Shown piece after piece: positions 6,795 through 55,919 of a DNA stretch of 64,000 bases. The notes under the pieces are model-generated. The model ran no database searches. It was not told the origin of the DNA and worked only from the letters and a program-made list of their open reading frames with translations. How positions within the stretch are numbered: position 1 is the first letter of the stretch; every line of letters starts with the position of its first letter. This stretch comes from Paracyclopina nana. Its lineage: Eukaryota > Arthropoda > Copepoda > Cyclopoida > Cyclopettidae. The position numbers and the translations under genes are program-made. Location: contig JAGUCH010000004.1 of the NCBI GenBank assembly GCA_019096065.1, positions 4,340,001 through 4,404,000 on the forward strand, given 5' to 3'.

Positions 6795-9700
6795 TCACAG
6801 ATCAAACTGTTGCCTATATCTCAAGGCACTATATCTGTTCAAGTTGTTCCTCATCTCCTGCAACTGAGCACTTGAGGAATCCATAGCCCTAGCTGATGCT
6901 GCAGCAGCAGCGGCAGAGTTGGCCAACATCTCGTTGCGAGTGTCCCCACTCGTGTCAGTGTCGTAATCCTCGCTTTCACTATATGGCTTTCGCCTGAGTC
7001 GATGATTTCTCCCGAGTGAGAGGGTATATTCTTTCGAGTCCTGAAAAAATATTATCATTTCAGAGTAAACATGTTTTCCCGAATGCACTTAATACTTCTT
7101 GGCTAATAGCCTAATATCCTCAAGGGTATATATACTATGGGTAGCAGAATGTGGGTCAACGAAGGATTTGCCACACAAATAAGTGCTATCATTAATTACC
7201 ATAGTTGCCGCTGCATTCATGAACTTTTGCTGCTGGTATTCTGTCATCTCAAGATTCTTCATTCTGCCCAGTGTGGCACATCGACTGTTGCCTCCCTTGA
7301 ATGAGTTCCTCGTCGCCACGAGAGTAGCTGTATTGGCATAGGGACACGCGTCAGTATTCATGTGGTCGCCATTATTAAGCCTTTTCAGTCGGTCCACCGT
7401 GTCAAAGCCTTTTCTCGCAGAGTTTGCATCCGTCGTAAATGGGGGCACAGGGGGCTGTTTCCTTTGAATTGTTGCATAGAGCTGGTGCTCAATAAGGTTT
7501 TGCCGGTTCTCAATCGTGCAAGACTTTGGGATTTCGCCATATCCCACCGGACCGTGAGTTGGGTGCTCTGCAAATATGCATTATTTATTTATATCAAATA
7601 ATTTACTATACAACAAAGTCCGCCTTACTGGTTTTCCGCAGGCAAATGCAAACTCCGATGGAAGCGAGGACGAGACAGAGCGAAGAGATAAGGATCAGGA
7701 GGACGCTGCGAATTCCGATCCCTTTAATGACATGGTCAAAATTGCTGTCAGCCTCGTTTCCATAATGGGCCGCACCGGAGTAATTTTCGGCCAGCGTCTC
7801 CGTCGAATACCTGTGGAGCGAAAGTGACAATCACCAATTAAAACTGAAATTAATTGGTTTCATCCAAGATCATAGAGACACCGCGCGCGCGTCGTATATG
7901 TCTTCAGATATATATAATCAGCTTTGTATAATACGATAGCCATCTGATGCGTACTACGAGCACGAATTATATTATGTGGTGCTACGCTGCAGAATCACAT
8001 CAAAGCCATACATAACAACGAACGTGACTAACCTCATCGAGGTCGATCCAGCGTGGTTATGAGCCGTAACCTTCAGCTCGTAGTCCGTGTCGGGAGCCAG
8101 ACCACGAATGCTATATCTGGCCTGAGGCTGTAAATCGTTCGTCACGGTGATCCAGTTGTCAGCCGAGGCCAATCTGTACTCGATGACAAAGTAGAGGATG
8201 GGGCAGTTGTGGTCATCCCACTGGTCCAGTCGGAGGCTCAAAAAGGTCGTGTTGGCCACTATGAAGTCGTATGCGGAGGCTGGGGCCGTGGGCCGGCTGC
8301 CTAGTGTCCTCGTCGTGAGAACCTGCGAGGCTGGGCTAGCTCCCATGCTATTAAAAAGGACCACGTACACGTGGTACTCCCTGCCGCAGTTCAAGTTGGT
8401 CAACTCGTGCTCCACCTGGTGCCAGCCCAACTCCTCATTCACCCACTCTCCATAAGTCATTTTGTAGTTGACGGCTACCCTATTGATAGGGCTTTGACCG
8501 TCGTCAGTAATCCTCCAGCGGATAGTCAGCGAAGAGGCTGTCGTTTGAGTCACGTGGACGTTGGCAGCCTTCGGAGGTTCTACATAAATGAAGAGAAAAT
8601 CCAGTGAGGATTACAGCAACGACGGCACCCCATGATAAATGACTGCTTTAAAATATTCAATTACGCATAGATGTAGGGTAGTAATAATATACCTTGCACA
8701 TGTACTTGGTAGGAAATGCTATCCGTGCCAAGTGTGTTCTCCACGTAGCAGGTGTAGTTCCCGTTGTTCTTCTCACGACTCACGGCCTCCATAAAAGCAC
8801 TGGTCTGGCCATAGGACGACCTCTGCTGCAGCCAGCCGGGCTCATGATTATTGTAGAACCACTTGGCTCCGGATGGCATTGGCTCGCCGACAAAGCTGCA
8901 TGGGAGGTTCAAGGCCGACCTTGAGGGGATATAGACCTCGTCTCCTAGGGACGTGATCCTGGCATGCACCCTGTCCGATGGCGTTTCGGTGATCACTATC
9001 GAGCTGGATCCCTCCCCAGCCGAGGTGACAGCCGTGACCCAGAATTGGTATTGCCTATCCGGCACGAGATCCTCGATGGTAATCCACCTGACGTCGGCTG
9101 GCCTCGTATATTTGTTGTGGCTGTGGTCCATCAAAATTGAAGTGTGGATGTGTCTGAAACGTAATATCGGATGATCCCTCGCCTCATTTTTCACACGAGT
9201 TCGCAAGTGTTATCAAAAAAAAGGGAGGGAGATATATCCTGGCCGGATCTATGTACAGAATAGTCCACCTTGGGTCACCGAACCGACATGAGGTCCCTAC
9301 TAATAGTAATTTATGGTACTACCACTATATCTGCCCTCGTTGGCCTCGTTTCCGCGAACGATTTCGGGGGTGACTTTAGCGCAAATGGTCTGTCTGGGGC
9401 AGCAGCACCTGGAGCTGACCCAGGGACCATGGGGAACCAAGCTGCCTCGGCTATGGCCATAGGAACTGGATCTTCCGGAGCCGGAGACTACGCTTCTAAT
9501 TACAAGACGCCCAATTTCACTCAGTACACGCAGCAGGATTTCAAGGAGTTTATGCCCAACTACCAGGACATGATGAACACGACAATGAGTGCTATGGGTG
9601 GAGGAGGCAGCCAAAGCAGCATGGGAGCAGCTGCGAGCTTCACCAACTTCACATCTGTCAATGTCATGCTGAAAGGCTTCATGGACCTTCAAAAAGAGCA

Positions 9701-12700
9701 GCTTGCCGTGGAAAAGGCCAAAGCTGATGCCTCGCGGGCAAAACTGGACTTGGCCCTGCAACAACACGATGACTATGCTTATGATGATGAAGATGACACC
9801 AAGCAAAGTAGGAAGAGAAGGTCTGTGCCCCTTTCAGGAGGTAAAGGTTGCATAGAAAGTACTCAATGCTGGCCTCGAGTCCAAATCCAGCTTTCTTTAT
9901 ATAGGGACCTCGAAGGAGGCCGAAGGCTTAGCTTTACCTTTAAGCTCGCTGTCATCAGCCACCCAGGGAATTGCTGTGCTTAAGACGGCAGCCTCCACTT
10001 TACTAGGGGAGGACAAACTTTTCTTCAATAGGTATCAACCAGCTTTTATTATATGCTATATAGTAGCGGTACACAAAGTGTATATACGTAAGGGCCACAT
10101 CAAACAAAAAGGGATTTATCGGGCTGCTGTGTGGTGAAAGCGCGTTTCTTCGGCTTTCTCATTAGAAATAAAAGGAGATCTCTCGCGGATTTCAACAACC
10201 TAAGCCGATTTATCTTTGCTCCTAAAAAGAAGACGGCTCCTTCCTGCCATTGCAGCAAACTAAGTGCTCAAAGACATGTCTGGCAATTTTGGCAATTTAC
10301 TCCAGCAGCTCAGGAAAATGCTTGCCACTAGATGGCGTTGATTACCAATTAATTAAGCGCCATCTAGCGTGCAAAAATTAGCATTGCCCGAGTCTTAATA
10401 ATAATAAAAAAATGCAGCACATTTTAAGAGGCTTTTGGTTATAACAAGCTGTCTGACGACAGCAACCTCAGCAATAGGCCAAAAAAAGGAAACTTTGATC
10501 CATTCTAGCGTAAAGCCACGTCAGGGTTGGAAAGTCCGACAAGTATCGGGAAATTGGGGCAAATCTGCAAACAACTGGATGGACGGTGGCGGAGGAGGAG
10601 ATGCCTCGTCCAAATGGGGATCTGGCATGAGTGGGAAGCAGAGCAGTCAAAAGAAACGCAGAGGCGGCTGGTTCAGAGATACTCAAAGTGCTGGACCTCC
10701 ACAAGGTGGAAATGGTCAAGCCGCAGTAGCAGCAGGAGGAGATGGTGGTGAATTTTCCCATATACACGTTTAATTTAGCGAGCCAAAGTGAAAACTTTGC
10801 CCACTTTTTATTTAGGCCCAGCTGGAGGTAAAAACTTTTGGTCTAATTTCGGCTCAATGTTCACAGCAGCGGGAGGACCAACGGGAGGTGATGCCGCTGC
10901 TGGTAAGACAAATGGAGGTGGCCAAACTTGGTCAAACTCTGGTAGCAGTGGGTCGCCGCCTGAGGCTCCCGCATGGGGTGGTGGCAGCAGCTCTGGTGGA
11001 TCAAGTTTTCAGCCAGATGCTAATTCGGGAGGTCAACAAAGCGGTGCTGCTGCGAGTTCGCCCTATATGGCTCAAGGTAAACATCATTGTCCAAAAAAAG
11101 TGAGCCCTATATATACTCCTGCACTAGAATTACCTACCTTAATTAAGCAAGCATATGATCAACAAGAGGACTACTACTGATGCTGCTACTCATTTGTGAT
11201 TGAAAAAGAAAGCATCATCAGCTTTCTTCCTTTGGGGATTTCGTCTCACATTTTTCATGTACACACACACTAGTGTAGAGCACTAATTATGAATAGTCAG
11301 ACTAGTACGTAGCTTAATGCTAGCTACTGCATACAGTAGCTGTTTTTACTACTATGGGTGTATGGCGCTACGAAATACGAGCTGCATAAATGTAAATTAT
11401 GAAGCCCCCAGGGACTCTCAAAACATTTTTTTTCGGTCTCTCCTCCTCTTACAAAAAAACGAAGTAGCTAGTCTCAGATATAGGCGAAGGACTATATGCA
11501 TGTATTACGACAATTTGTGGCAAAGGAGCTGGCTGACTTAGGTGAAAATGGGTAGCCACCAATTTTTCCATTACTGAGGGCTACCCTTGAGACCTGGCAA
11601 TATCCACATTAGATTGCACTGCTTGTTTAGTGCGTACACACTCAACACACAGCAAAGTCAACAACATCATGATGAAAACTTCGAAAGCTAAAGGCCAAAT
11701 CGCCTCAGGCCTGGCTTCTGCCTAAAAAGCATAAAATTCCCATTTTTCAGGCTCCGCTGGTGTGAGTGGAGGCAGCTTTCCAGGAGGGCCTCCTCCTCCA
11801 CCGTCTCCTCAACAGGGAAATCAGAGGAGATCTTTGCCAGGCCTTGCTGCTTACCCTGTTCACGGAGCCGTGACATTGTCAAACGTTCCAAAAGAGCCAC
11901 CAACCATGATGTCTGCCTACAACGACAACATACCCAACCTGTCTTTCTCGCTGAGCCCTAAAAAACCAGCAGCAGACGCTTTTGAGGAGCCAGATGAAAG
12001 TAGTGAAAGTCAACCGGCTATGAAAGAGGAACCTGGTCGTCTGTTGATGACTGCGCCAACCTCATCAGGAGGATACTTGATGCCACCACCACCAACTTCA
12101 TATAGACCGACATATGTGCAAATGGCAGCAGAACCGCCAACCGTTCTCCGGTTAAGGCCGATAGTAGCTAGACCTAGTAAGTTTCAGCCCTTTGCATACC
12201 AAATGGCTCAAATTCCCTTTGAAAAATTAAAAGTCAAAGTCGTGCAGGGTCAACTGAGAGATGCACTCAATTTTTGCTGCAGCGCCCTCTAGAATTTTCC
12301 GTCTCTGATTTGACGTAATTATTTAATTGAATTTTATAGAGGTCGCTTTTGAAATTAATGCATAATACTCAGAATGACCCAGCCCGTTTTAATTCTAAAA
12401 AAGCAAAAACGTTCAAGATTCGCTTCTATATAGCATTTGATAGCGTAAGTGTGCTTGCTTTTATGTCTGGACAAACTGATATCCCAAATTGGAGGAAGGA
12501 TCTCCGTAAGAGTAACATAAATGGTTGGATCTTCCATTTCAGATGTTCCACTTGCAAGCAGCAGCAGCAGTGGTGGTGGTCCCCATTTTGTCTACTATTA
12601 CGATGGCATATCAGCACCCGGTAGCACCGCAATACTGGAGGAAGAAAGCATCGATAATGGCCCAATTTTGGTCCAACAGCCTACTCCGTCTTTTGTCTAT

Positions 12701-15700
12701 CAGCGATCGCGGAAGGCCGCGGTGGCCACCGATGAGGATCCACTTGTCATCTCCATGACAGATGGCACCGACAACAAGAAGATCATGGTCGACCCAAAGC
12801 ACGGTGTCCTCATCAGTACGAGCGCCGAAACGCGGAGAAAAAAGCGATCTGTGGACGAAGAAGATGATGATAATGATGTGCCATCAACTACATCTTCCAC
12901 AGAGGCTACCAGTGTAACTACAGCCACCACTGACCCAACCGAACTGCCAAAAGAAGAAGAAGGAGGAGAAAACGAGGACCCGAACGGACACAGACACGGG
13001 AAGGAGAACCATTTCAAAAGCGAGAAGATGGAGGCCATGATGAAGCCATTTATGTCCTCGGCCTCGTCCTTCCCGTTTTTCAACAGCAGGTCATCGAGGC
13101 GAGTGAAAATCGACTTTGTGCAAAATGGAGGAGAATTGCCCGAGGGCTCGGTGGAGACCATCAGCGCAGGAGGGGGCAAAGCACCAGGACACCACGAAGG
13201 AGGAGGCCTCACTGTGAAGGTAAAGGATACTGGCAAAGGCAGCGGCAAACGAGCTTTGGAGGCAAGAAAAACACTCAATTTCTACTTCACGTGGTGATTC
13301 TTGTTGTTGCAGATCCAAATACCCCCAAAATTGCATGGCCACTATCTGTTCGACTGAGAGAAATACACCAATTGCTGTCTAATTTTTTCCCTCCTCGCCG
13401 GCCCATTTTGTCTTTGCGAAATTTGATCCTACCGTAAGTAGATGTGATAGCGCTCCACAATCCCATTGGCAGGGTCTGGTGGCAGCCATGAGACAACCAC
13501 TGATCGCGGCGATTTCACCACAGCCTTGATTGCTTTCGGCGCACCAGGAACTGCAAACAGAGGCAGGCAAAAAAGAGAGTTAGCAATGAATTCTTCGATT
13601 CCATTTCCAGCTGAAGAGTTCAATTTCCGAAAGCAATATTTATGACACGCGCTGCTACAGAGCATTAGCATAATTTACCGTCAGTAAGAGTGATGCAGGA
13701 GACGGGAAATGAGTATTTTCCATCACCGCCCTGAGTGAAAGCCAGGACTTGGATGCTGTAGTTGGAGAACTTTTCAAGATGGTCGAGCACCGTCGTCACG
13801 GTAGATAACCGAGTCGTCTTGGGCACCATCAAAGAGCTCACGGGTGGCCTTGAGTCGGGCACAGGGGCATACAGTACTTTATACCCCTTAATCAGCCCGT
13901 TGCGGACGTGCGGTTGCGGAGGGTGCCAGCTGACCTGGATCGTTGTGGAGGTGAGGGCCACACAGTGGACTTTTTCCGGCGGCCCATCTGGAGCTGCGCG
14001 GAGAAGACAAAGAATAATTATTTCGTGGGATATGACAAATGACAGCGGAATGCTTTTTTGTACCATCTTCTTGAGTCTGTCCAATGCTTGGGATGGACAA
14101 TGGTCCCTCGCCAAACGAGTTGACCGCTTGGACGACAATCTCGTATTTGGCATACTTGCGCAGCCTTCGGATCACGAATCGCGAGCCGCCCACGTCATAC
14201 TCGAGCTTGTCGACATCGACAAAGCGATAATTGGGGGAGCTGAGCAAAAAACGCGAGATTAATGGATTCTTGGCCGAATTCCTCATGAACTCACTTGTAT
14301 TCTCGGTAGCCGAGGTTGTAACGAGAAACGACCCCGTAGAGCAGTTTGGCCTCCGGATCGTCCCACGTGACCTCCAAGCTTGTCGATGTGAGCCCAGTGA
14401 TGCGAACATTACGAGGTGGGCCTCCCGGCCTCTCTCCGTCCGTGACAAACTAGAATTAATTCCATGTCAGCCCTAGAGTCCCATGGGAGCAAAGTAGTAC
14501 ACCATTATACCTGTAGCACTTTGCCATCCTTGCTTTTGCCCAATTGGTTTTCGGCAAACACCCGCAAGTGGTAGACAGTCCAAGGCCGCAAATTGGTCAC
14601 CAGGGTCTCGGACATGTGGCCAGGTAGAATATTTTGCTTCCCTTGCGGAAACCACTCCTCTGCAAAATAGATTTTATAGTGAACATCAATGATTTGCTTA
14701 ATTGTAGCCGCTGTAATGTTTGCTCAGAGGCTTGAGAAAAACACACATTATTCTATTTGGAGTAGACTTAAGGGTCATAAATGAATTGGGAAAGTGTCTC
14801 TTATTAAAGCCACTATTTGTCAAGATGACGAGCTTTCTTTTTTGCTTCGCGAGCAAAAAACCATAAGTTAGTCATATACAATGTTGTAATTGGTGGTGAC
14901 CCAAAAAATTACTTTTTCCCCTCTTGTAATGAATTTTTAACGAGATCTTTGAAGTGGGCTTTTTCCTTTTAGGCTAAGTAAGCCTAAAATCTGCTTACCT
15001 ACCTAGCATCAAGATTCTAAGAATATTTGCTTCTCAGTGAAAGTCTAATTAAAATAGGAATTAAGCTTCTCATCATGCAATTCAGGAAGAACTTAAGAAG
15101 AAGGCTTAATGCCAGCTTACTATTAAATGGAGAGCATCATCCACTTAAAAAAAGGCCAGTTCAAAGGCCACTGTTATTGGAAAATGGACAGAAATGCTGC
15201 TTCCTTCCTAGCTGGATTCGAGAATAAAGGCCATGCATACTCGCAACAAGGCTAAATTGGATTTATTCATTGTGCAAGCTTACATGATGACGACTTCAAT
15301 TCTAGCTCAGGTGAGGAGAAATACACTTCACATTTTGCACAAAGCCTTTGAAGTTGGAAAAGAATAATGAATTGAAGAGAACTGCCACTGCGTACATAAG
15401 TATAGAGGCTAAAATGTGCTAGTGAGTGATGAAAAGTTTTGCAAGAAAAGGAGCTGGTTAGTTAAGCTCTGGCATATCTAAAAAAGGTAAATCAAAGTGA
15501 AAGCGAGATTGCTTTCTCCTCATGCAAAGGGAAACTCGCGACATTCTGCAGCAGCTCAAAAACTTTTGAAGTGCATTTTCATCTTCATAGCGTAAAAGTG
15601 AGCACTGTGGCTTCTGGCTGGAAATCCAATTTGCTCTAATCAACTTGATTCATGATGAAGATGATCCGGAGCAGCGAAAAAAGTTTGGTTCTTACCCGAC

Positions 15701-18700
15701 TGTTCCTTCCACTGAACGACAAGCCTGTCAACGGCCGGCGAGGCCATTTCGACGCTCCAGGCCACCTTGACGCTCCGGCTTTGGATGTCCAAAATGCTCA
15801 GATTCTGGGGCGTTGGCGGCGGCTCTGCAAAGGCAATTTGACTCTTTTATTGCGGCCAAATTGGATGAAAATGCAAATATACTGCTAGCATACCCCAAAT
15901 CGTAACATCGATGCTAAAGTGAGACGTCCCGAATGCATTGGAGGCCTGGCATGAATATCGGCCTGCGTCCTCTTGAACAGCATCGCCAATCCGCAGCTTC
16001 GAAGTCACCCTTTCCAACTCGCGTATTTCGGTGGTGCTCGACTTGCCCGGAAGGGTCAGGTAATCCTTGCCATCTTTGGCCCACTTGATGCTGAAGCAGA
16101 AACAAAACTTTATCAATCTCTGCCCGATAGAATAAGCGATGAAAGATTCATATCAATCACAAACTTTTTCCCACTCCTTCACGAAGAAGGTATACATACA
16201 GGCTAGCTGCTCTCTCAATTGAGAACGGTTTAATAGAGGAGAGCGTCAACCTCCGGAGCTTGCTGCAGCCCAACTTTTGACATAAATTAGATATAGGTGC
16301 CCTACTTTTGTTACCACGGATATACGGTGAGGCTGTGCGGTCAAAAGCACCCTCAGCAAGATATAGTGTATACAGCCTTCTGTTCATGATGAGAGGTGTT
16401 GCATTGTGACCAGGTCATGCTACAACAGTAGCAAAACCACAACCCTCGTGGCCTTTATGCTTGACAAGCAAGAGCTCCCGGCGTTCAATGTAATTAGATT
16501 GGGGGAGCTTTTGATGCTACCATGCTCCAATGCTACATATAAACTAAATAAAGGTGTAAGTGCCATTTCAAAGAGCGTTGGCTATATTGGGGCAATTTTC
16601 TTTCTCTCGAGGAGAAATACACCATAAAAGTAAATTTGGACCATCACCTTGAGGCATGCAGTAATGGTGTGTGTGTGAGCTCTTCTCTGCTCATTTACCA
16701 GGCAGTTTGCAAAGCCCTTGGCTTCTTCGGCCAACTACTATGTATGGTACAGGCTGTTAAACAGCTTAATGAAGACAAGCATTTTCGCCTAGCTTCTTTC
16801 CCAATATACCGCTATACTAGCTAGTGTGCTTTAATTAAAACCCAACACGATCGAGGAGCTAGAGTAGGATCAAGTTGATAGTGTATGGCTATGCTCTTTT
16901 GGTCAGAGAAGTGGCAGCAAATCCAGCCGCGAGCAGCAGCATGGGCATTTTACGGTCAGTGCGCTGAAAAAGCCCCTGAAAAAGACTCGCTCTACCGAGA
17001 TTGACATGACTTTGAACAGGGTCAGACAGGCTCAAAGTGTTTGAATTCTTCGAATCAAAGCTCTATTCTCACTTGATGTGGTCGTCTCCAGCCGCCTCAC
17101 ACACGAGCTCCAGAGTTTCCCCTGTTCTGCCAGTGACAGGACCAGCGTGAGCAACATCAAATTTCGGAGGGGCTGCAATGGAAAAAGGGTGAGATGAGAA
17201 GAAAGCCGCCACTAATTAGAGAGAACTTACCGTTGATTTTGAGTGCCACCATCTTGCCAATCGGTTCGTTGACTCCATTGTCAGCCTCACAAATGAACTT
17301 GCCCTCATCAGCCTCCACGGCCTTGGAGATGAGCAGAGTGCCGTTGATGAGGAGACGGTAATTCCTGTACACTGGCCTCCGTTGATTAAGCTCCAATACT
17401 GGATGAGTCGACTGAGCTAATCCTCCCGCGTGATCTAAGCGCAACCGTATATGAAATTGGCGTATGAGAAAAGTAATCGTTTCACCATACCCGAAGTCAA
17501 TCTCTTCCAAGTGATGGTGGGCTCGGGAACTCCGGACACTCGACAGGGAAAGAACACATCTTGACCTTCGACAGCCTCCATATCGTGAGGCTTGACGATC
17601 CACTCGGGAGGAACTAGAACAAACATTGCATGAGATTGATTTCATCATACTATATTGTAGCAGTAGTATTTGTGCAGTAGCTCTTTCTAGCATAAATAAT
17701 GGTGCAAGTGCTCTTTGGTGCAATGATAAGGAAATTACGATTAGAAAGCTGTGGAGGAGAGGGGCAAGTTTTCGGCTTTTCCGCCACGCGGGTACCAGAG
17801 TGCAAAGTTTAATTGGACTTTTGCGAAGAAAAGTTGCCAGCACACACATCTATATACCATGTTATATATAGTGGCTGGCAAACTTCGGGTCAATTCCCAG
17901 GGCGAAAATTGGAGTTTTAGCAACTCCTGACAAGTGGTCACAATTAGAAGACTCACCTCGTATGGCCAATACGTCCGACCTCGTGAAGCTGGCCACCGCA
18001 TTGGAGGCCACACAGCTGTAGTTGCCAGCGTGGGTGGTCTCCAAAAACGAGATGGCCAAGAGGGACGTGAACTCGTCGATCCGACGCACTTGGATTCCCA
18101 GCGTGCTTTTGAGAGGCTCCAATTTGACTCCATCCTTCCACCACTCGACCTCGAGAGGCTGGTCGCCCTCGGTCACGGCGCAAATCACCCGCAGCCTCTT
18201 GCCACGGGTCAGATTTTTGGGGAAGGTGAACCGCTCCACAAGCGGAGAAACTTAAAAGGTAATCGTGATGGGTGCGCGCGCGTAATAGCAATAATACCAG
18301 CGTGAATGACGATTTGAGTGCTCTTATAACATTGTGCGAGAGAAAGCAAGTGCAGCTAAAGATGGCATGTATGCGATGATGGTGATGATGATAACAATAA
18401 TCAGTGCAGCATAATTATGGTGATGTGCAAAAAGTGCAGTGGTGCGTTTGTGCGTAAGAAGCCGGCCTCCTACCCTTAACTCTGAGCATTTGCGAGTGCT
18501 GCGCCAGCCCCGCGAAATTCTCAGCCACACACGTGAAATTGGCGTTGTGCTCCGGCCTCAGGTTGTCAATCCTCAGGACGGACTCGTAGTGGCCGATTTC
18601 AGTGATGCTGATCCCCGAGGCTGCAGCCTCCGGAGTGAGCAACTGGTCATGCCTGTACCACTTCAAGGTCAGCGGGAGGTCGCCGTCCGTCACGGAGCAC

Positions 18701-21700
18701 AACATGGACACTCTTTGGCCCAGACGCAAGTGCTCACCCACTGTGAACTTATTGATGGTGGGAGGGACTTTTGTGTTTTGTGTGTAAAGAATGAGAATGG
18801 TTATTTCGGCCTTCATCATGTGATTTGCGGTGGCGCGCGCATTGCTTTATGGCCTTTTTCTTGTAGCCAATTTAATGAAGGGCTGGCATGAAATGGATCC
18901 GGAAATGCGGGTCTTACCTATGACTTTCAATTGGCCTGATTGTGTGGCCGCGTTGCCCTGTCGGTTGGTGGCAGTGCATGCGTAAATCCCCGCGTCTTTT
19001 CTCACCACCTTGCTTATGGCGAGGGTTCCATTAGCGAAAACCGCGTGTCTCCTCTCCATGGGAAGGGAGCGTCCTTCTGTAATACACAATGCAGAACAGA
19101 GGCATAATAGTATGCTAATGCAATATTGCATAGAACACTACATACATAGTATAAATGGGGAAGAAGACACAACTGCTGCTGCCATCACATTAGAGTATCA
19201 TAGAAATGCAATTTGCCGCACACCAGCTGCTCGCACGATCAGGAAGCCGCTTTTAATATTCAAATTTTCAGGCCAATTTGGAGTAAGCTTTCGTACTCGA
19301 AATGATGCTGTTTTTTTGTGGCTGGCTTAAGGTAGTGTAAATTCAAGTCCTGGGGGACTTTTGAAAAAAGCTCGACTTTCTAATAATAATACATTATCCG
19401 TGACACACACATTTTTAGCAAGGGCTACGCGCGAGATGGATAGCGTGTAGAACTATAACCATAGTATACCATATACCACGCCGCTGTCAAGGCCGGCACA
19501 CAATTAATCTTTTTGCGACACTACACAGTAGTAGTAGTAGTGTGGGAGCAGCCAGTGGGCCCAACTGATGCAAATTTCCCACAATCGACTTGAGAGAAGA
19601 GCAAAAAGAAAATGGCGCGATGTGGACAGAATTACTGGCAGTAACACTAGAGATAAGCGATATGGAAGAACATAAAGGCTTTCGCAGATTGCATCGAGCG
19701 CGCGCGAGAAGAGCTGCGCGCCACTCCCAAATGGACAAATACGTTCGTCTTGGGGAGCAGAAAAAATGTGAATTAGCCAAAGTCTTTTGAGGGGGCCAAG
19801 AAGAAAATGATGCTTGTCATAGGCGAGAAAAGAGGGGTCAGTGGTGCGAAAAACAACAAAAATACAGCTTGGCCAGCGCTTGCTTCCGGATGACCAGGCA
19901 TCAATGCATTGTCAGAAGCATGAAGCCATTCCAAAAGTGTTCTTTTCACCATGTGGCGTAGCATGGCATGCATGTCAAGGAAAATATTTTGCTTAGCAGG
20001 AATCTCAAGCAGCTCGGGAAAAATTGGGAATTGCCAATCTGAAGATGACAGCAGCCTAAGAGGCATTTTTGAGCAGCCTCGTCCGGGCCTCAAGATATCC
20101 ATCCTCTCCTCCTACCTTGAGGGCAAAATGATGCTACTACATATATGGTCACTATGCTAGGAAGCTTAGCTACTGAGGTATAAATATACAGGGAGCAACG
20201 AAGTAACGCGCGCAGGATATGTGTGTCAAAGCAACGTAAAGTGAAGGGGGATCACAATATGGCCAACCAGTATAATGTTCTGTTGACATGGATGATGGGA
20301 GGGAAAAAGGCAGTCTATGGTGGTGTATGAGAAATCTTTTCAAAAGACGACGACGTCGCATGGGAAGAAGGTTTTTGAAACCGCAGCAGCTGAGCAAAAT
20401 ACTTTCTACTAGGATAGAGGCCGGTTTGCTTACCCTTGGTCCAAGTGATTTTTTCTATAGGATACCCACTAACGGGACAGACGACAGAAAACTCCCTGCC
20501 AACTACAGCTCGCAGTTCGCCAAGTGGGTGGACATGCGGAGGGCCTTGAAAGAAAGCCACATTATTATTATTGTTGCAACAATGCCTTTTTCCTCCACGA
20601 AAAAAAAGAGCTGTTACCATAAATATTAAGCCTCGCGGAGTGGGCCATGACACCCGCCCGATTTTCAGCCAGACACTCGTAAAGGCCACCGTCTTGCACG
20701 TCAACTCTGCTAATATTCACGTGGCTAACGACCTCTCCGTGGAGCGTAACATATTGGCCGATGAGAATTCTGCAAATAAGAGATTCTTTATAGCAGCGGA
20801 GGGTTAGTGCAAATGCCATTTCATATTATTCCTTCCGATAAAAGTTGGCGGAAAGTTCAGATTGCTTTGCCAAAGGTAGACAGACGCATTGGGCCGCTGC
20901 CGAAATATGTATAGAAAAGAGCCTTGGCCAAGCCCTTTATATACTATAGCAGCAGTAGCAGTATGGAACGCGTGCATGCAGTAGTAAAAGGAGAAAAAAG
21001 GGAGAGAGGAAGTGGAGGGCCATTTCCAGGAACAATTTGAGAACTTTGCGATTGACGGATCAAGTCCACGAAAAGGATAGAAACGACGACTTCTTCTTCT
21101 TCGCCTCCTCAGTTTTTCAATTCAACATACCCAGGGGTCTGTGGAAGTTCGTTGCCGTTGAGTGACCACGTAATTTTCGGGGTGGGACTTCCTCTCGCGG
21201 AACATTTGAGCGATACCAAAGGGCCTGGTTGCAAGGTCTGGTCGATGAATCGGTAGGTCATGATTGGGGCCGCATCTGAAAATGGAAACCAGATTGCTAC
21301 TGACCAACACAATGACGTTGACACAATCCATTTAAAGCGCGTATATTGTAATATAGCATGGTTTTGTATGTAGTAGACCTAGTGCGCGCGACCTTTAAAT
21401 CTCAATTTGGTGAGTAGCCCTTTTTTAGCGAGGATGGACCGTGAGGCCGCGTGATGGATCAGCCAATTACTCCTCGTGTCGACCTCGATCCTCAGCCTCC
21501 CATTCCTCTTTGTTGCTGCTGTGCTTTTCCGATAAACTCTATATGTGCTGCCATTACTATATTATATACTAGTAGTAGGCTCAAAAGGGGAGAAAAAGTG
21601 TCGCGCGCATGCAGCAATACGCGAGCACCATCAGTCTTAATTGACCAAATTACCTCCAAGGCGAAGCTCCGAGGCTGCCTGAGCCTCCTGGGAGCCTCGG

Positions 21701-24700
21701 GTGACGAAGCACTGATACATGCCATAATCGTCCCTTTCAAGGTTGAAAATCTGCAGCGTTTGACGGTTGGCAACAATTCGATGATGATTTGGCAACGTTT
21801 GTCCGTCCTTCATCCACGTGATTGCGCTTCGATCACGGTCCTCAGTTAAACATTCCAGCCTCGCCTGCCGACCAATATCGATAATTTGCTCCGATGGCAC
21901 CACGTCTGCAACACGAGCGAGTTTCCAAACTTATTAAAAAGTACAGAAAAGAAGCTACCGTTTCACGAGTGGCATATATATAGTACAGAGTGAAAGCAGT
22001 TTCTTCCTCTTTTGAGCTTGCAGAGCGGAGAAAAGAGAAAAAAGTTTTTGTCTCAATATTTCAGTACAGCCAAGTGCCAGAGGTAAGTCAAAAAGTTTTG
22101 GCGACAGACTGGAGCGCAGGGCAAAACCTTGAAGAAGTGAAAGCTATTCAAAAGGGGGGAAATGGAATGCTGTTGTTCTTCGCATGTGTAGACTATTAGT
22201 TCATGTTCCATATAATGATGTGTTATGTGTCTTATTTACCAACAGAGATGGCAGAGGCAATGTCCAGGTTCATCGTGAGGCTCACTTCCCCGCCCTCGTT
22301 TCGAGCAGTACACCGATATTGGCCGCTATCATCTTCCTGCAAATGGATACAAATGGATCTTACAAGAGCGAGATATGCCTCCGCATGTATTGATCAAGCC
22401 AAAGTTGTTGTAAATATACGCGGTTACATGCCTAATGATGCCTTGGCACGAAACCCAACTCAGTAGTGGCCCTTCTTTTACTATTCAACCCTTTGTGTGT
22501 GTGTGTACCAGAGTCAAGTATTATCCACTTCTTGGCTGCTGCCAACTTGTTGAGCAACTCCGGCCAGCATAGTCTTACTAATTGATGATAGCTGCTTCTC
22601 CACGTGGCGGAGGGCAAGATTATTCTAATATCTTAACCACACAGCTCAGAGAATCCTCCTCCTCCACTCGAGATTAAAGCTGGAATAGCAGTTGGGGTGC
22701 TCGTGGTATGACCTAAAAAGCTGTTTGAGCTACGCTAGCTACGATTTAGACTGCTTCTTTGAGGAAATGGCAATCCATCCACTCGCGCAGAGGCTGTTGG
22801 AACAATGAGTGGTCTAATAATGTCAGCTGCAAATCAACGCCAACAATGTCACCAGTTCAGTGAGAGGAGAGGGAAAAATTCCCCGACAAATTGGTCGGAA
22901 TGACACTGCGCGACGTCGACAAACGACTTCTTCGCTATTGTCCTTTGCATTGTGAGCGTCTCGCTCCTTCCACTCCCACCACGTTTCAAGTTTTCTTTAG
23001 AAAAATGTGGAAGAAGCTTTCCTTTATTCGCACGAGCTCGGAGCAGCCAGCAAAATGATCCCCGAGAGGCTCATTTGTACCTACTATAGCGGAGCTGCTT
23101 ACTGTTTGAATAAGGGTGCGCGAGAGGGCTAATATGTATGGAAATTGAAATGATACTCACTTTGAGCGAATCGATGACAAGGATGCCACCAGACAAGTAG
23201 ATTTTGCTGGTGCGGGCGACTGGCTCCAGCAGATTATTGCGGACTCGAAACCAGCTACATAATAATGGATCATTGTTATTTTTGGGAGAGGGGGAAAAGT
23301 GATGATGTATAAGGTGGCATTGCGACTCTCACCTGAAAGCAGGGGGAGGATTGCTTTGAACATTGCATGCCAAAACGCCCGTCTCATCTTTTTGGTAGGA
23401 GTAATAGAGGTCTTGGTGCATGAGCTCCCTCGGCTTCGAGGGCAATCCGGTGTCTGCAGAAAAAGAAAGCAAGTTGCAATTAATATATATACGAATCTGC
23501 ACGGCAAGACGACTTTCTAAAATGTCCCATGGGACTCGACACTTACTGTCGATCGTCAAGTGGAAAGGCGGACTTGATTCCTCCAGACTGGTGAGTGAAT
23601 TCACGACCAAGCATGAATACGGCACTCCTGCGTCGTTTTCATCGGCCCGTAAAACGTGAAGGTCACCCGAGGGCAGCACGTGATATTTTCCATCTGCGAA
23701 TGAAAACATAGTGAATTAAGACGCACAAAACTTATGCCATGGCATGCTAAGACTCTGGCTTACGCTGTCTAATAATCCTAACCATTTGGCAACAGATGCA
23801 TGGAAGATTTGGGCGACATCCCCCTTCACCAATGGTGTAGTTGCTTCAATAATTAACTAAGGAATCTCGAGGAGGATGGTAAAAGGGGCAAAAAGTCCCC
23901 CACCATCTTGACTAGCTCCTCCGATCTTCAGCGAGCTAATGCTGCTACTGTGTTTACCCCATGATGATCGAGACAGTCGTGATCGTGTGCCACTAATAAA
24001 GGGATTTGGCTCGCGAAATTACTGCTGCCAGTTTAAATTATTTCCAAGATAAAATAATGGCACATAAGGAGAAATGATGGTAATGCAGCAGCTCGCGGAG
24101 ATTCGTTTTGTCATGCCAACCACGTACAATTTGTGGCACACAATGTTGTTGGTTGGCAATACATTTTCGCAATTGTTTCAGACTATGCAGAAGTGTATTA
24201 GCAGGCAACGTAGCCTGTTATTAGCTCTCTCGACACTTTTAATGACCCTTGCAACTATGTGGAACAGCAGCAAAAGCGAGATAGTCCAAAAAATGAGTGG
24301 GCTACTATACTGCTACTGGCAAATTTATGCATATAGGGCTCTCGAGCCATTTCATGTTTATTTCTCTATTTAGCACTTTTATTCTGGCTAAAAGAAAGCT
24401 CGACTTGCACTTATTCCAATGCTAAGAAAATCCCAAGAAAGAATTTGGCCCATTTTGCATGGTCGATTTTATGGCTCAAACGTGAGCATTGTTCATATCT
24501 GGCATGGAAAAAATCCCCAACTAAAAGTCCGTTTTCCCCCCACTAACAATGTGTACCATGTACTAGTACAGGCGAAATCAGGCCCAACTGATGAAGATGA
24601 TAAGAGAATGTGTCAGATTACCTCCTCTTGACGAGGGATAGAGCCTCGTTGTGCCTCGGGTCCAAGAGATGATTTTGGTGTAAGGAGACGCTGATTGGGG

Positions 24701-41646: not shown

Positions 41647-42792
41647 TCAAACGCGTTTGAACGAATACAGCATTTCCAAGGGCTTGTTGACCTTCCAGTA
41701 TTTCTCGTTCACTTGGGTCAGCGACAACGATGTCGTCAATGGAGTGATTTGGCCAGGTGCTGGAGACACATAAATGGTTAGATCCTTCACTGAGCCGCCA
41801 GAGGCAGAGGTGGATTCTTTGGAGGAGGCAGTTGCAGGCGATTGGTTGTTGGCCAGATCCAGGGCAATTCGCATGGCTAAGTACTTGCAGAGGTGCTCAA
41901 CTAGAGCCCTTGATGTGGTTTTGATGTAACGTGTGGCATTGTCCTTCATTGACTCAATCACCTCCTTTTGCTCAATGTCAGCTAGCATATCGGGGTGCAG
42001 CCTAAATACTATTTCTATCTCCTGTGAGGACGATCCAGAGGCGCCTGACTCGTCTGCATTTTCATCATTTACAGATGAGTTGAGCGAGGTTGGGGGCTTG
42101 ATTTTCTTCTTTTTCTTCGGGGGAGGAATTGGAGCATCTTCATAGTCTTCATTGTCTCTCCTCCTATCGCCAATAATTGGCGTCAAATGGGGTGAGTCAG
42201 GAAACTCTTCATTATTCTTTTTTCTATTCACTGCCTTGGCATGGGCCATTTGTGCTTTGATTCCGTCTGAAAACAGTTAATCGCGAGATGCTTTTTTGGC
42301 TAAAATTCCTTGTATTACCTTTGATAGAGGCAATGAAGTTTTGACTATGGCTGCGACTGATAGAATCCAAAATGCTTTCTTGGTGTGCCTCATATTCCTC
42401 TCGATTGGGGAAAATTTTCTCCACCAGCTGATCAAAATTAGGGTCAGGTCGCAATGATCGTTTTGAAACGAGCTTTTTTCTACACGTAGGACACTCCTTG
42501 TTACCAGATCTCAGTGCTGTTACAATGCATTCGGCACAAAATCTACAGGACAAAACACATTATGATTCAGAGACATAGACACGAAATAAGACTTTCGTTA
42601 CCGATGAAGACACTCTTTAGTGGTCATGGTGTTGGAGAGCATGTCAAGACAAATGGGACAAGTCAGTTCACTTTGGAGACTACGAGCTGAAACAGCAATT
42701 TCAGTCTCATCTGTGATGGCTTCTTGCGGAGTTCGATGAAGCTCATAAAGAGACAAATCCCAGGTTCGCTCAACTGGATCACTAGCCGACAT
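41647..42792 (-). CDS. RING1: RING1/Sce, Polycomb PRC1 E3 ubiquitin ligase
   Basis: Catalytic subunit of Polycomb repressive complex 1, which mono-ubiquitinates histone H2A in the nucleus. Three exons, 42792-42602, 42542-42319 and 42266-41647, give 344 aa in frame with clean GT-AG introns (42601-42543 and 42318-42267, both under 60 nt). The N-terminal RING is complete: Cys45, Cys48, Cys61, His63, Cys66, Cys69, Cys81, Cys84 (C3HC4), with CPICLDML and the [13 protein letters not shown] strand typical of RING1/RNF2. The [18 protein letters not shown] segment after the RING is equally typical. A Ser/acidic and poly-Lys linker follows ([12 protein letters not shown] near 190), then a C-terminal RAWUL (ubiquitin-like) domain from about 225, ending [14 protein letters not shown]. 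Length matches vertebrate RNF2. Confidence 0.96.
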
Positions 42793-43142: not shown

Positions 43143-47130
<3,988 letters not shown>

Positions 47131-48257: not shown

Positions 48258-49836
48258 TCACAGGCTTAAGAAATCCAGCATGCACAGCTCGTCCCGCGTG
48301 GCATTCAGCAACTTGGTTGGGGTGATGGCTAAAATCCCTGGGGTTCTGTCGTTGATGCCATCCAGTGCAAAGCTGCATTTTTGAGCACAGTACAAGTAAT
48401 CGTTGTCATCCATAGGCTGCTCGTCCAAGCGGATGATCAAAGCGCCGAAACTTTTCCTATTGACACAGTACGTATGCAAAATAACGCAGTGCTCGTTGAT
48501 CTTCACGTCACACACACGCATGCTCTCCGTGCTCCCACTAAGCGTTGAGTTGATGTAGTCCAGGTTGATCTTAGGCATTGCCACGTTCACCATATTGGCA
48601 TCGGCATCAAAGCGGTACACAATTTGACTTGATATGTTCTTGCACACGGTGCCAACCATATTCTTGTAAACGCCCAAATAGCTGAAAGTATTTTTGGGCT
48701 CAGATAAGCCAGGTGGAGACTCTGCCAGGTCAACCCTGAATTTGGCAACCCCGCTCTCAGCCTCCCACACAAGCAGACATCTCCTATTCAAAAGTCCATA
48801 TACGAGTCCCTCGCTGACGGCCACCTTTTCAAACCATCGAAATGGACAGAAAGAAGTATTGGGGAGCAGAAACTTTTGGGTCTCCTTTCTCACGTTCCAC
48901 ACACAGACTGCAGGAGAATTATCTCTGGACATTTTACCTAAAGGAAATAATTCGAAATTCAGCGCCAAAGCACATTTTTGTAGGGTACCCACCTGGTATT
49001 GCCAAGTGTTTTCCATCACCAGCAATCTCTTCGTGAGGGTAACGCATTTCCTCCACAAGTGGCAAAGAGTGCAGCTTGTCGTACGTACGAATATCATGAG
49101 CTACAATTGTGTTGCTCAGAAGGTCAAATTTGTAGACATGACGACCAAAAATACGCATCAAAGGGAACTGGCCCCAATCTTGACTTCGGTCACGCCATAG
49201 CTCTCGAAATTCGGAATTAGGGCTGAGGTCGATCGCAATCAGCTCTTGAGGTGTGTCTTCACCTATCCCATTGAAGCATAGCACAGCTGTGAACTTAGCT
49301 ACCAGGATTGCACACAAATCAAGGTTGAAAATAGTGTCCGCTTGCAGCTCAAAGTTCAGCGTCTTCTTTTGAGATGTATGGAAACCGTATCCTCTCAAGT
49401 CATAGACAGTCATCGCCCATTGCTTTCGAGTGATTCTACCTTCCAGCAGAGTTAAAGGCTCGGCCATCACCAACTGTCGGGTATCATGACCGACGATGCA
49501 AGCCTCTGAAAAGGGAAGCCTGTGCTCCTTGAAGGAGCAGTTTTTCCAATTATTTGCAACATACAAGTGTAAGAGATAGGAGTGTTTTTCCTTGGCGTGA
49601 TAGTGCTCAAGCTTCGAACTGCACTTTGCGCTCAGCGTTCTTGAGAAGCTGACAATGTCACTTTCTTTGACAATCTTTTCTTTTCGCATGAGGAGCACCC
49701 AAAGGTGGTCGCACCCCAGGAGGTAAAAGAATCTCTGACAAACGTGACTGAGAGCAACCACATCTTTTCCTCTAAGAAACCTGGTGATATGCAGTATGAG
49801 CTCTTCTGGCAAGTCTTTCATGGTAGCACCAGCCAT
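48258..49836 (-). CDS. F-box protein, substrate unknown
   Basis: Probable substrate receptor of an SCF (Skp1-Cullin1-F-box) ubiquitin ligase. Exons 49836-48993 and 48937-48258 join in frame to 507 aa across a 55-nt intron. The N-terminus (residues about 6-50) is an F-box: DLPEELILHITRFLRGKDVV, then LSHVCQRFFYLLGCDHLWVL. The remaining 450 residues repeat short hydrophobic and aromatic strands (for example QWAMTVYDLRGYGF, VCVWNVRKETQKFLLP, LVWEAESGVAKFRVDL) that suggest a beta-propeller, but I see no clear WD or Kelch consensus and assign no subfamily. The ATG at 49836 lies directly behind an acceptor (TTGTTTCAG|AG), so a 5' UTR exon upstream is likely and would fall in the 100 bp before, or inside, the B4GALT7 gene. 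Confidence 0.85.
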
Positions 49837-49936
49837 CTCTGAAACAATATACGGTAGAGATGTTAAAAGCTTAGAATAGCATTTGAGATAAAAGAGAGTG
49901 GAAGGAACCAAGCTTCGCATTTGAGTATAACAGGGC

Positions 49937-50941
49937 TTATTTCTTGGTTGTCTTTTTCCTCTTGATGATCGGAACAATCACATCGTCGTCGCGCACGAGA
50001 TTCTTTGGCTTTTCACGAGGAGGAGCATCACGACAGTCGCACCAAGGAGTTTTCTGACGATCACAGTTAAGAGCAACGCTGACAAGAGTGTAGGGAACGC
50101 CATCAACGCAGTTCTGGAAAACTCGTCCGGATTGGAAAGACACAGAATCGAGGCCTGTCTCGCGGTCACGCTTTCGGGTGACTTCATGCTGGTCGTAACA
50201 CTTGACAAAGTCTCGCTTTCGACTTTTGCTAGAATGGAAATGCCTGAATGTGTCTTGCTTGCCAGTCGTCAGGTTGGAAGGTCTTTGAATACTGAGCCCA
50301 GCATCTAACAGCCTCCGGTGAAACTCGTCGTCCTCGAGCCCCCAGCCCCAATAACGGTTACTCATTCCATTGACTAGACGATAATGGTCTCTCGTGATGA
50401 GCAGAATCCCACCCAAAAATGTGGAGTAGTCGTACTTTGGATGGTATCCCGGAGCAGCGACGTGGAACGGTCCCTTGTCGGGAAACGAATAAGGCAGCTT
50501 GGGATTCAATGGCACCAGATCTACATCATGGAGGGCAACGTAGTCACAGTTGGGACTTCCCAATCTCTCCAGCTCGAGTTCACTCTTGATAAAGCCAGCA
50601 TTAATTAGCGAAGCACGGTTGAAGCGTAGCGTGTCGATTTGATTGATGACAAATATGGCATGAGCGATTGACTGATGGCTAAGGAATTGGCTAATTGTTG
50701 GCACAAACTCATTCAACTCCTCAAAACGGTCCCGAAATGGAATGAGAATGCAAAGGAAGTGATCCCCTTTCTCTTTTGGTGGACTAGCGATGACATGGGA
50801 TAAAGGGGACGAGTCCGAAAATCGACATGAGCCGCTCTCCTCCAGAGGGAACAATGTCATCACAAGGACCAAAACAAGACAGCAAATGAGGCAAAGCACA
50901 CAGAGGCGAAATGTGACGAGAAAATTTTTTCGCGTCAACAT
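49937..50941 (-). CDS. B4GALT7: xylosylprotein beta-1,4-galactosyltransferase 7
   Basis: Golgi type II membrane enzyme that adds the first galactose to xylose in the proteoglycan linker tetrasaccharide, starting heparan and chondroitin sulfate chains. Intronless, 334 aa. A short basic cytoplasmic tail (MLTRKNF) precedes a single TM anchor (LCVLCLICCLVLVLVMTLF). The catalytic region has IPFRDRFEELNEF, the metal-binding DVD in HDVDLVPLN (about residue 140), the LGGILLI strand, and the acceptor-site signature WGWGLEDDEFHRR (about 195-208). The C-terminal CVDGVPYTLVSVALNCD also matches the family. It ends with a basic, Lys-rich tail. The ATG at 50941 gives the expected anchor topology. Confidence 0.96.
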   Translation of the reverse strand: MLTRKNFLVTFRLCVLCLICCLVLVLVMTLFPLEESGSCRFSDSSPLSHVIASPPKEKGDHFLCILIPFRDRFEELNEFVPTISQFLSHQSIAHAIFVINQIDTLRFNRASLINAGFIKSELELERLGSPNCDYVALHDVDLVPLNPKLPYSFPDKGPFHVAAPGYHPKYDYSTFLGGILLITRDHYRLVNGMSNRYWGWGLEDDEFHRRLLDAGLSIQRPSNLTTGKQDTFRHFHSSKSRKRDFVKCYDQHEVTRKRDRETGLDSVSFQSGRVFQNCVDGVPYTLVSVALNCDRQKTPWCDCRDAPPREKPKNLVRDDDVIVPIIKRKKTTKK

Positions 50942-51621
50942 GCTTCTTCAGACACCTTCGAGGAGGTCACATTTCTATCACTTTCATGGAATAGTCCCAA
51001 ATCTGGATGAAGTTCACTTCACTCTTCAGCTGTCTGATTTTTGTTATCGCTAAATAACGCCAATCGCGCAATCGCGCAGCTCACCCAACTTTACATTTTT
51101 TAGCTGCTTCTCGCTTCTGCTGCAGCTGAGCCCCTGAGCATGAGTGGCAGCAGCCGAGTAAGGCAGAGTTGCATAGCTATCACTAAAAATGCAAATTTTC
51201 GAGTTTCGACTATTTTGTTGCATCCCATTCACTTTAGCAAAAAAGCAATTCAGGTAATTTATTTCACTGCTCCAAAATCATGCAGACCAGCGTTGCTATG
51301 TTCGACAAAAAATATTAAGCCTTAATTTGACTTGTACGGTACACTTTGATTTTTCTCGTTAAATTGCTTATTTGCATACATTTATGCGAATTTTAGGCGT
51401 CAATTTTAATTTTTTCTCTTCGATTAATCACAAACTCAATCGTTCACAGCTACATTAGACAGTGAAATGAGCTGCAAAGCGGTTAAACGTGTGATTTTCG
51501 TCTTGGATCGTGGTAACTTTCGAAATGGCATACTCAGCAGAAATCCGTTGCAGCCGGCCGCTTCAACTCAACGTTTGCTCCAGTAAATTTTTAGCCTGCA
51601 TCTTCCTCTCAAGACATCAGC
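50942..51621. other. intergenic between B4GALT7 and FKBP12
   Basis: 680 bp between divergent start codons, so it should hold both promoters and 5' UTRs. No TATA box or other clear element was picked out. Confidence 0.4.
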
Positions 51622-54098: not shown

Positions 54099-55739
54099 TT
54101 AAGTCAGATTTTTGAGAGATACTTGATAGAGTGACAGGGATACGGATAGAGTCGTCTCTGTCTCCTTGTCAAGAAGTATATCCAAATCCTTAAATGTTTC
54201 GTCTCCAAAATCTTTCAAGTACACTTTGGTAGCTTCCCCTATCCACGATCTTCCAGAACAATTCCATACCTTGAGCTCAAGGCAGGAATTTACATCTCTG
54301 ATATTTTCAACAAACATCAAAGTGCCTTCATTGATGTTGGTTATATTTTTAGATGCTAGGGGCTCAAGTGAGGTCCATTCCTCCACCTTTCCATTTTCCC
54401 TTTGATGCATGTAGATGTAAACTTCAGGCTTGGTTGCCACTCTTCCATCTAGTTGCCCTAAGAAAATGCTCAAAACTCCATACGGTTTTGCAACTTCGGC
54501 TGAATCCCGTCGCTTGTTTGAGACGGGAATAGCTTCAAACTCAATTTTGACACGGCCTTCAGAGTCCTCGAAGTTGTACCAGTCGTAAATTTTCTGAGCT
54601 TTGCTTATGTTTGCTACAAGTTCAGTTACTTTGCCAATTTGTATCTTGTACTCGTTGAAAATGGTCACGACCACTTTTTGCTTGTACACATGCTCGACCG
54701 GGAAGATTTTCTCAAAGCCCAAATTTTTTGGGCATTTTTTAGCGTCAGAGCAAAAGTTTTGCGTCTGACCTCCCATGCAAATTGTGGCATACCTAATGGG
54801 CTCTTTCTGGGAAGTGCAGTAGGTAGTTTCGTCTGTGGAATGGTCGATTTCTTCGACAGCAACTCGAATGAGCATCAAAGGAGCAAGCATTAGAGCTCTG
54901 CTGTTAAATTGGGTCTTCACAGGAAAATGCTCCCTTAATGGCTTCACTATTGATAGTGGAAGCTTGATAGGTAGCATCAACATTCTAGGCAAAACCATAC
55001 GTTTTAGAAGCTTGACATTAACAATGTGCATCACCATCTCATCAAACCCGGGTATGTCAGCGATACCCTCTAGCCTTGAAATACTGCAGTCATAAGATGG
55101 TGGCTCAATAAAGCTAAATTGCACACCCGATATTATCGGTAGATGATGTGTCCAATTCTTCAAAACAACTCTCATGTGCGCATCTTTCACTTTCACATCT
55201 TTGACCACCACTGGAATCTCCAGCAGCTTTTCATCAAACGAAATGCTGATGAGAGCATTTCCATCATAATTTGCAACTATGTCCATAAGCAGATTATTGT
55301 TCTCGATCCAGGACTCAATTGACTTCAATCTGGGCGCTTGATCGCCAATATGAAAATCATTGAGATGTACTGTTCCAAAAATTCCCAATTTGTTTTTGAG
55401 TTCCTCAACAATTAATGGCCAGATCTCTTCGCGAAAGCGGGTGTTGAAGTAAGTGCGATAATTAAGCCACATCTTCTTGATGATTACGTTTACCCATTCG
55501 GCTGAATTGCTCTTGCTCTGATTTCTGCCACTGATTTTGCAAAAAGATTGGACGCCTACATGATTTCTTCCGGGGTGGCTACGAAGATGGTGGTCTTTAA
55601 AGGCTATGTAGAAAGCTCGCACAATGAGCCCAACAGGAATGCCGAGCGCAAATCCGCCATAAAGAGTAGAATAGTACACAATCGCAATAGATGCGAGTTT
55701 AAGTAAGATTTTCTGGTCTTTGTACGTTAAAGAAAACAT
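54099..55739 (-). CDS. extended-synaptotagmin-like SMP/C2 lipid-transfer protein (intronless)
   Basis: Single-exon 546-aa protein. The N-terminus has a hydrophobic hairpin (KLASIAIVYYSTLYGGFALG, then IPVGLIVRAFYIAF) like the ER anchor of extended synaptotagmins. Residues about 78-275 form an SMP lipid-transfer domain: EWVNVIIKKMW, then HLNDFHIGDQAPRLKSIESW, the HMRVVLKNWTHHLPIISGVQ strand and GIADIPGFDEMV. Two C2-like regions follow (about 310-430 and 435-546; CMGGQTQNF and the GVLSIFLGQLDG start), but the Asp residues that bind Ca2+ in typical C2 domains are mostly missing. It is shorter than usual E-Syts and lacks introns, so it may be an old retrocopy or a lineage-specific member. Its start codon lies 180 bp from that of TRMT6, divergent. 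Expected role: tethering and lipid exchange at ER contact sites. Confidence 0.82.
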   Translation of the reverse strand: MFSLTYKDQKILLKLASIAIVYYSTLYGGFALGIPVGLIVRAFYIAFKDHHLRSHPGRNHVGVQSFCKISGRNQSKSNSAEWVNVIIKKMWLNYRTYFNTRFREEIWPLIVEELKNKLGIFGTVHLNDFHIGDQAPRLKSIESWIENNNLLMDIVANYDGNALISISFDEKLLEIPVVVKDVKVKDAHMRVVLKNWTHHLPIISGVQFSFIEPPSYDCSISRLEGIADIPGFDEMVMHIVNVKLLKRMVLPRMLMLPIKLPLSIVKPLREHFPVKTQFNSRALMLAPLMLIRVAVEEIDHSTDETTYCTSQKEPIRYATICMGGQTQNFCSDAKKCPKNLGFEKIFPVEHVYKQKVVVTIFNEYKIQIGKVTELVANISKAQKIYDWYNFEDSEGRVKIEFEAIPVSNKRRDSAEVAKPYGVLSIFLGQLDGRVATKPEVYIYMHQRENGKVEEWTSLEPLASKNITNINEGTLMFVENIRDVNSCLELKVWNCSGRSWIGEATKVYLKDFGDETFKDLDILLDKETETTLSVSLSLYQVSLKNLT

Positions 55740-55919
55740 CTTCCATTAACGTTCTCCAATTTGACGCAAAAAATTGATCATGGTATAGAGAGGTTGCGCT
55801 GCGAGTTTTTACCGAATTTCCGCATTGATAACAAAAACAAAACAACGTTTCCCGCATGTTGAAGCTGAATATCTTGAAGCAAGCATTGAGTTCAAATTGT
55901 TAAAGTTATCAGCACGGAA
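55740..55919. promoter_or_regulatory. divergent promoter of the E-Syt-like gene and TRMT6
   Basis: 180 bp between two divergent ATGs with no TATA box seen. It must carry both core promoters or short 5' UTRs. Confidence 0.45.

Follow-up and report, generated by a model that had tools for sequence, protein, structure and literature searches.

We analyzed a window of 64,000 nucleotides from the copepod Paracyclopina nana (assembly GCA_019096065.1, contig JAGUCH010000004.1, positions 4,340,001 to 4,404,000 of the forward strand), to which all coordinates below refer. Within the window, a candidate plus-strand gene, starting with an ATG at 9288 and with its stop ending at 13357, lies inside an intron of a minus-strand Dscam gene. 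An initial annotation, made by reading the sequence, had placed a six-exon gene in the intron that splits FN4, and the ATG, the stop, and the edges of the flanking minus-strand host exons (9153 and 13433) all agree with that placement. The parts of the host that frame the gene are listed here; splice-site percentiles, here and below, rank each site against all 6,310 GT or 8,264 AG of the window.

9154..13432, minus strand: host Dscam intron splitting FN4, 4,279 bp, flanked by the two fn3 halves; acceptor 9154 at the 92.7th and donor 13432 at the 97.7th percentile
13433..13550, minus strand: host Dscam exon with the first half of FN4; fn3 profile positions 2-36, E 0.00046, 20.8 bits, which is under the Pfam curated cut-off of 25
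8693..9153, minus strand: host Dscam exon with the second half of FN4 (fn3 profile positions 42-82) and Ig10 (Ig_3/I-set)
8033..8579, minus strand: host Dscam exon with FN5 and FN6; fn3 at 7.6e-24, FN3_DSCAM-DSCAML_C at 3.6e-31

The host was identified as Dscam because a split fn3 domain is followed on the minus strand by an Ig domain and then by the DSCAM C-terminal Fn3-like model; the split fn3 before Ig10 is presumably FN4, going by the canonical Dscam domain order. Minus-strand Ig-like motifs extend to about 22.4 kb of the window in a motif scan. The same kind of scan of the Dscam part at 7092-22393 (minus) returned single Ig-like frames and no obvious duplicated variable-exon arrays. The whole coding sequence of the nested gene falls within one intron, its coding span taking up 4,070 of the 4,279 intron bases (about 95%). 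Outside it lie 75 intronic bases on the 13433 side, as initially reported for the stop, and 134 on the 9153 side, one fewer than the 135 bp reported for the start.

Six open exons were recognized in the plus-strand coding span.

9288..9840, plus strand: exon 1, with the putative signal peptide, three N-glycosylation sequons, predicted helix, and first furin-type site; 239-codon stop-free run; donor at the 98.0th percentile
10463..10747, plus strand: exon 2, Gly/Ser/Trp-rich, start uncertain (10463, 10509, and 10535 among others); 121-codon stop-free run; donor 10748 at the 95.9th percentile
10816..11076, plus strand: exon 3, Gly/Ser-rich; acceptor and donor both at the 98.5th percentile
11751..12176, plus strand: exon 4, Pro-rich; acceptor at the 99.7th and donor at the 98.5th percentile
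12543..13219, plus strand: exon 5, with the second furin-type site and an acidic, Thr/Ser-rich mucin-like stretch; 258-codon stop-free run; acceptor at the 97.7th and donor at the 98.7th percentile
13313..13357, plus strand: exon 6, with the final 14 residues and the stop; acceptor at the 99.9th percentile

These exons encode 724 residues if exon 2 begins at 10535, or 748 if it begins at 10463, as first proposed, and across the splice models tried the length ranged from 705 to about 840 amino acids, the upper figure being arithmetic on one exon set. The splice sites of introns 2-5 scored high throughout (donors at the 95.9th, 98.5th, 98.5th, and 98.7th percentiles; acceptors at the 98.5th, 99.7th, 97.7th, and 99.9th). 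For comparison, 10 of 11 Dscam control sites ranked at 92.7-98.7, the remaining one, 14063, at 80.8 being possibly no true site, and four further GT/AG in the scanned stretches, with scores of 17.1 to 66.9, were taken as not true sites. The last intron (13220-13312), about which doubt had been expressed, is likely because its two sites rank at the 98.7th and 99.9th percentiles. The boundary of exon 1 at donor 9841 is in phase 1; in the 724-residue model introns 1-4 are all in phase 1 and exons 2-4, judged from their lengths, are multiples of three, and therefore skipping any one of them would keep the frame.

The coding signal of the intron exceeded that of shuffled sequence in run lengths, cysteine depletion, and spliced-frame score. 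Its six longest plus-strand stop-free runs span 258, 239, 185, 166, 133, and 121 codons, and in none of 1,000 dinucleotide shuffles was the real run matched at any of the six ranks. Cysteine codons are absent from all 724 codons of the gene frame. The remaining five frames contain 20, 37, 31, 20, and 34 of them, 2,000 shuffles average 21.6 and never fall below 9, and kinase matches from the same genome have 101 in 5,687 codons. Since the exons had been picked for openness and not for missing cysteine, this absence constitutes a separate test. We also searched for the best spliced frame by dynamic programming under four settings, comparing each with 200 shuffles. The real intron scored 704, its minus strand 270, and the shuffles a mean of 133 with a maximum of 289; no shuffle reached the real score at any of the four settings. 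The top-scoring model departs from the initial one by adding an exon in intron 1 and by reading through the last intron; the read-through was dropped because both splice sites of that intron score very high. The added exon (9905-10133), chosen at all four settings, relies on a donor ranked at the 90.3rd percentile and would bring two cysteines into the protein. Among 56 half-overlapping segments of the same size on both strands, 3 exceeded 704, all on the minus strand at 42.8-51.4 kb, where they coincide with a polyubiquitin array and other long open reading frames (ORFs). No second plus-strand nested gene was seen in the Dscam span, where the five plus-strand segments that avoid this gene scored at most 240. 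At the level of the sequence, the analysis shows the reading frame, the splice sites of introns 2-5, and the nesting, together with the signal-like N-terminus and the furin-type site motifs described next.

The features recognized or predicted in the protein are the following, with structure predictions by AlphaFold2 run without alignment and confidence given as the predicted local distance difference test (pLDDT).

9288..9356, plus strand: probable signal peptide, residues 1-23; highest hydropathy window at residues 4-18, cleavage point by eye
9645..9779, plus strand: long helix predicted over residues 120-164, with block means reaching pLDDT 87
9810..9821, plus strand: furin-type site RKRR before S, residue 175; pattern match
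12743..12790, plus strand: weakly predicted beta hairpin; block means 45-55, low confidence
12836..12847, plus strand: furin-type site RKKR before S, residue 583; pattern match

As had been proposed, the protein resembles a secreted precursor that carries two furin-type sites; it is also free of cysteine. Its N-terminus is hydrophobic and signal-like, and on hydropathy alone no other part is hydrophobic enough for a transmembrane segment. The R-X-[KR]-R pattern occurs at two sites, the first of which is retained only with donor 9841, and 8 places in the genome match the proprotein-convertase P domain. The protein carries four N-glycosylation sequons, and the 724-residue model contains 96 Gly, 88 Ser, 70 Ala, 60 Pro, and no Cys; a disulfide-folded hormone or enzyme is disfavored because of this lack of cysteine. 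Exon 1 without the signal peptide was predicted at a mean pLDDT of 58, with only the helix at residues 120-164 confident, and exon 5 folded alone gave a mean of 41 and no confident fold. The precursor is probably disordered and largely without folded domains.

No family had been recognized initially, and searches for relatives in Pfam, NCBIfam, and PDB likewise gave nothing significant. The only Pfam line was MCM3_WHD at E 7.5 (maximum E 10), and NCBIfam gave no match up to E 1. Against PDB chains, the exon 5-6 query found nothing significant (7 sequences at E 0.2-0.99), and neither did the exon 1-4 query (18 sequences at E 0.068-0.88, all prion proteins); the prion likeness, nonsignificant and covering about the first 140 query residues, was taken as shared composition. 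An R&R cuticle protein was also considered and set aside, with PF00379 (chitin_bind_4) not listed for the protein and 69 chitin_bind_4 places in the genome, a number that indicates an arthropod. Three protein pieces and the whole intron DNA, searched against the organism's own genome for a paralogue, returned only the self-match. In viral contigs, the 724-residue query gave 29 pattern matches, 0 of them confirmed, and in bacterial and archaeal contigs the 241 residues of exons 5-6, the only part searched there, gave 95 pattern matches, again 0 confirmed; neither collection is intended for arthropods, so these two negatives carry little weight. The protein may be new, its relatives having been sought in its own genome, Pfam, NCBIfam, and PDB rather than in arthropod collections.

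We consider the locus to be a real nested opposite-strand gene for a secreted, Cys-free, furin-cut, and probably unfolded precursor that helps to build extracellular matrix, and we give this reading a probability of roughly 0.55. We infer that the gene is transcribed and that its exon 1 joins exon 2. The signal peptide would most likely take the precursor into the secretory pathway, where glycosylation would fall chiefly on the N-terminal chain and furin-like convertases would cut at the two sites to leave three chains: one N-terminal and helical, one of about 400 residues rich in Gly, Ser, Pro, and Trp, and one C-terminal, acidic, and mucin-like. The chains would then help to form an extracellular matrix such as cuticle, eggshell, silk, or glue. 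The nested promoter would adjoin a Dscam splice acceptor, and the two genes are probably active in different cells.

Several points weigh against this interpretation. It draws on the sequence of one genome, and it is from composition that a matrix role in cuticle, eggshell, silk, or glue is suggested. Low pLDDT is weak evidence of disorder, as AlphaFold often fails without an alignment. The splice-site weight tables are general animal ones, not trained on this genome. Synonymous codon choice, scored after training with 23 kinase loci (in-frame stops removed the other 7 of an initial 30), is unsupportive: the gene scored -0.086 and background recoding -0.112 (standard deviation 0.021), giving a z of 1.2, with 114 of 1,000 random recodings reaching the score of the gene. 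By this score four of the six frames do better than the gene frame, and a minus-strand frame comes out on top (0.041). The full codon score instead puts the gene frame at the head of the six (-0.093 vs -0.110 to -0.209), with exons 2-4 falling under background (-0.213, -0.360, and -0.275). The synonymous test is weak here because a Pfam-domain ORF of 548 codons at 54099 also scores low (-0.126); some other long ORFs of the window are likewise low in codon-bias score. The junction between exons 1 and 2 is unsettled as well. Donor 9841 is good and has no strong in-frame acceptor near exon 2, those available being 10462 (80.4th percentile) and 10534 (17.3rd). The 748-residue join first proposed depends on the former. 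The best acceptor near exon 2, 10508 (93.2nd percentile), is out of frame with donor 9841 and comes into frame only with donor 9821 (94.0th percentile), the use of which would remove the first furin-type site, or with the Cys-bringing extra exon. Intron 1 (9841-10508, plus) also contains strong acceptor-like AG at 9904, 10031, and 10255 (at least the 98.5th percentile), without strong donors.

This junction gives room for two genes in the intron, exon 1 forming one by itself, perhaps to the stop at 9981-9983, and exons 2-6 a second. Besides the missing in-frame acceptor for donor 9841, there are plus-strand AATAAA at 10167 and 10403, and the exon 2 frame, in its upstream portion, resembles by eye a hydrophobic leader. 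However, by our own estimate chance alone would supply about two AATAAA over such a length, the exon 2 frame has no ATG before about 10579, and donor 9841 itself stands at the 98th percentile. Exon 1 read beyond 9840 would, moreover, gain four Cys in about 46 residues, whereas the rest is Cys-free, and we regard a division into two genes as unlikely.

The signal peptide, the two furin-type sites, and further dibasic pairs would also suit a prohormone or neuropeptide precursor that releases active peptides at dibasic sites. Neither repeated peptides nor a Gly-Lys-Arg amidation site turned up in a pattern scan and inspection by eye of the favored model, this triplet appearing only if the last intron is retained. 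The pieces released by cutting at the two furin-type sites would exceed 100 residues and the composition is matrix-like, which makes a peptide precursor a distinctly unlikely alternative to a matrix precursor.

A further reading denies that there is a gene and attributes the open frames to composition or to their lying antisense to other sequence. The negative codon-bias test speaks for it, and the opposite strand has long frames too (193 and 177 codons) and a spliced-frame score above the shuffle mean. That score nevertheless stays below the shuffle maximum, whereas run lengths, Cys depletion, and spliced-frame score on the plus strand each lie beyond every shuffle; the absence of a gene appears very unlikely.

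The relation of the nested gene to its host was considered separately. Overlapping antisense transcripts had been expected from the layout, and this holds for the Dscam pre-mRNA: overlap is forced with the pre-mRNA only, because the coding exons avoid the Dscam exons. The mature mRNAs could be free of overlap, although the plus strand lacks both AATAAA and ATTAAA from the stop to 14803. An AATACA directly after the stop, read by eye, could serve as the 3' signal and would allow the mature mRNAs to stay apart; otherwise the 3' end of the nested transcript would extend into antisense of Dscam exons. The layout is of a known and common kind, unsurprising in itself. Opposite strands are the usual arrangement of nested genes (PMC8467205, PMC3786989). 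In flies about 6% of genes are nested, many of them antisense to the host (PMC3786989), and 74.3% of simple nested pairs in human and 77.8% in mouse are on opposite strands (PMC8467205). From the geometry, interference between the nested gene and Dscam is a fair thought. In its stronger form, transcription of the nested gene, or its promoter, would impede excision of the FN4 intron, with a truncated and soluble Dscam as the outcome. The coding span fills most of the intron and starts close to the Dscam acceptor, a stop in the Dscam frame lies right at the FN4 donor, and AATAAA or ATTAAA is present on the minus strand within the intron; evidence of transcriptional interference between nested genes comes from a Drosophila study cited in PMC8467205. 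Against this, the argument is one of geometry alone, most nested genes have no functional relation to the host gene according to PMC3160391, and no functional link is apparent between 2mit and tim2 (PMC3786989), so that host truncation is highly improbable. Still less credible is the extension that a lineage-restricted matrix precursor of no known family is held in Dscam since its transcription sets truncation at the FN4 intron, matrix building and full-length Dscam being mutually exclusive in each cell. We found no publication joining an opposite-strand nested gene, an intron, and Dscam, although Dscam and nested gene do co-occur in the literature. If the preferred reading of a nested matrix precursor is confirmed, the locus would provide one more secreted, probably disordered, furin-processed precursor, a case of tight nesting within a gene of neural and immune interest, and a clean place for asking whether an antisense nested gene disturbs host splicing.

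Among known systems, the Drosophila Pcp product is a secreted cuticle protein, and Drosophila dec-1 encodes a secreted eggshell precursor that is cut into several chains. Pcp is likewise a complementary-strand gene inside a single intron of its host, Gart (ade3), in Drosophila (PMC3160391), with a different host and a different protein, no chitin_bind_4 match being listed for the protein described here. The Drosophila gene 2mit, in an intron of tim2, is also an opposite-strand nested coding gene with a product on the membrane route, but its product is a transmembrane protein with leucine-rich repeats that has counterparts in other insects (PMC3786989), whereas no leucine-rich-repeat domain was listed and no second membrane-like stretch was seen in the copepod protein. 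DPY-6 of Caenorhabditis elegans is similarly mucin-like, largely disordered, and secreted, and belongs to the apical extracellular matrix; it differs by a cysteine cradle domain, the nested protein being Cys-free, and the furin cleavage described in PMC13225626 is that of furrow collagens, not of DPY-6.

Other features were observed elsewhere in the window. The polyubiquitin array at 44159-45781 (minus) comprises seven head-to-tail ubiquitin units by eye. A minus-strand frame with a synaptotagmin-like lipid-binding (SMP) domain (54102-55745) stands head to head with a plus-strand Gcd10p-family frame (55890-57200), with about 145 bp between them, and adjacent plus-strand NUDIX-domain frames, similar by eye, follow at 57265-57750 and 58324-58884. 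Further minus-strand frames carry Bestrophin (531-1205), RAWUL (41650-42276), F-box (48937-49977), and galactosyltransferase-type Glyco_transf_7 (49940-50947) domains. In the genome, a search for COX1 gave no match, and only one NPC2/Der p 2-type place was identified at E 1e-5, few by the standard of mites, compared with the 69 chitin_bind_4 places.

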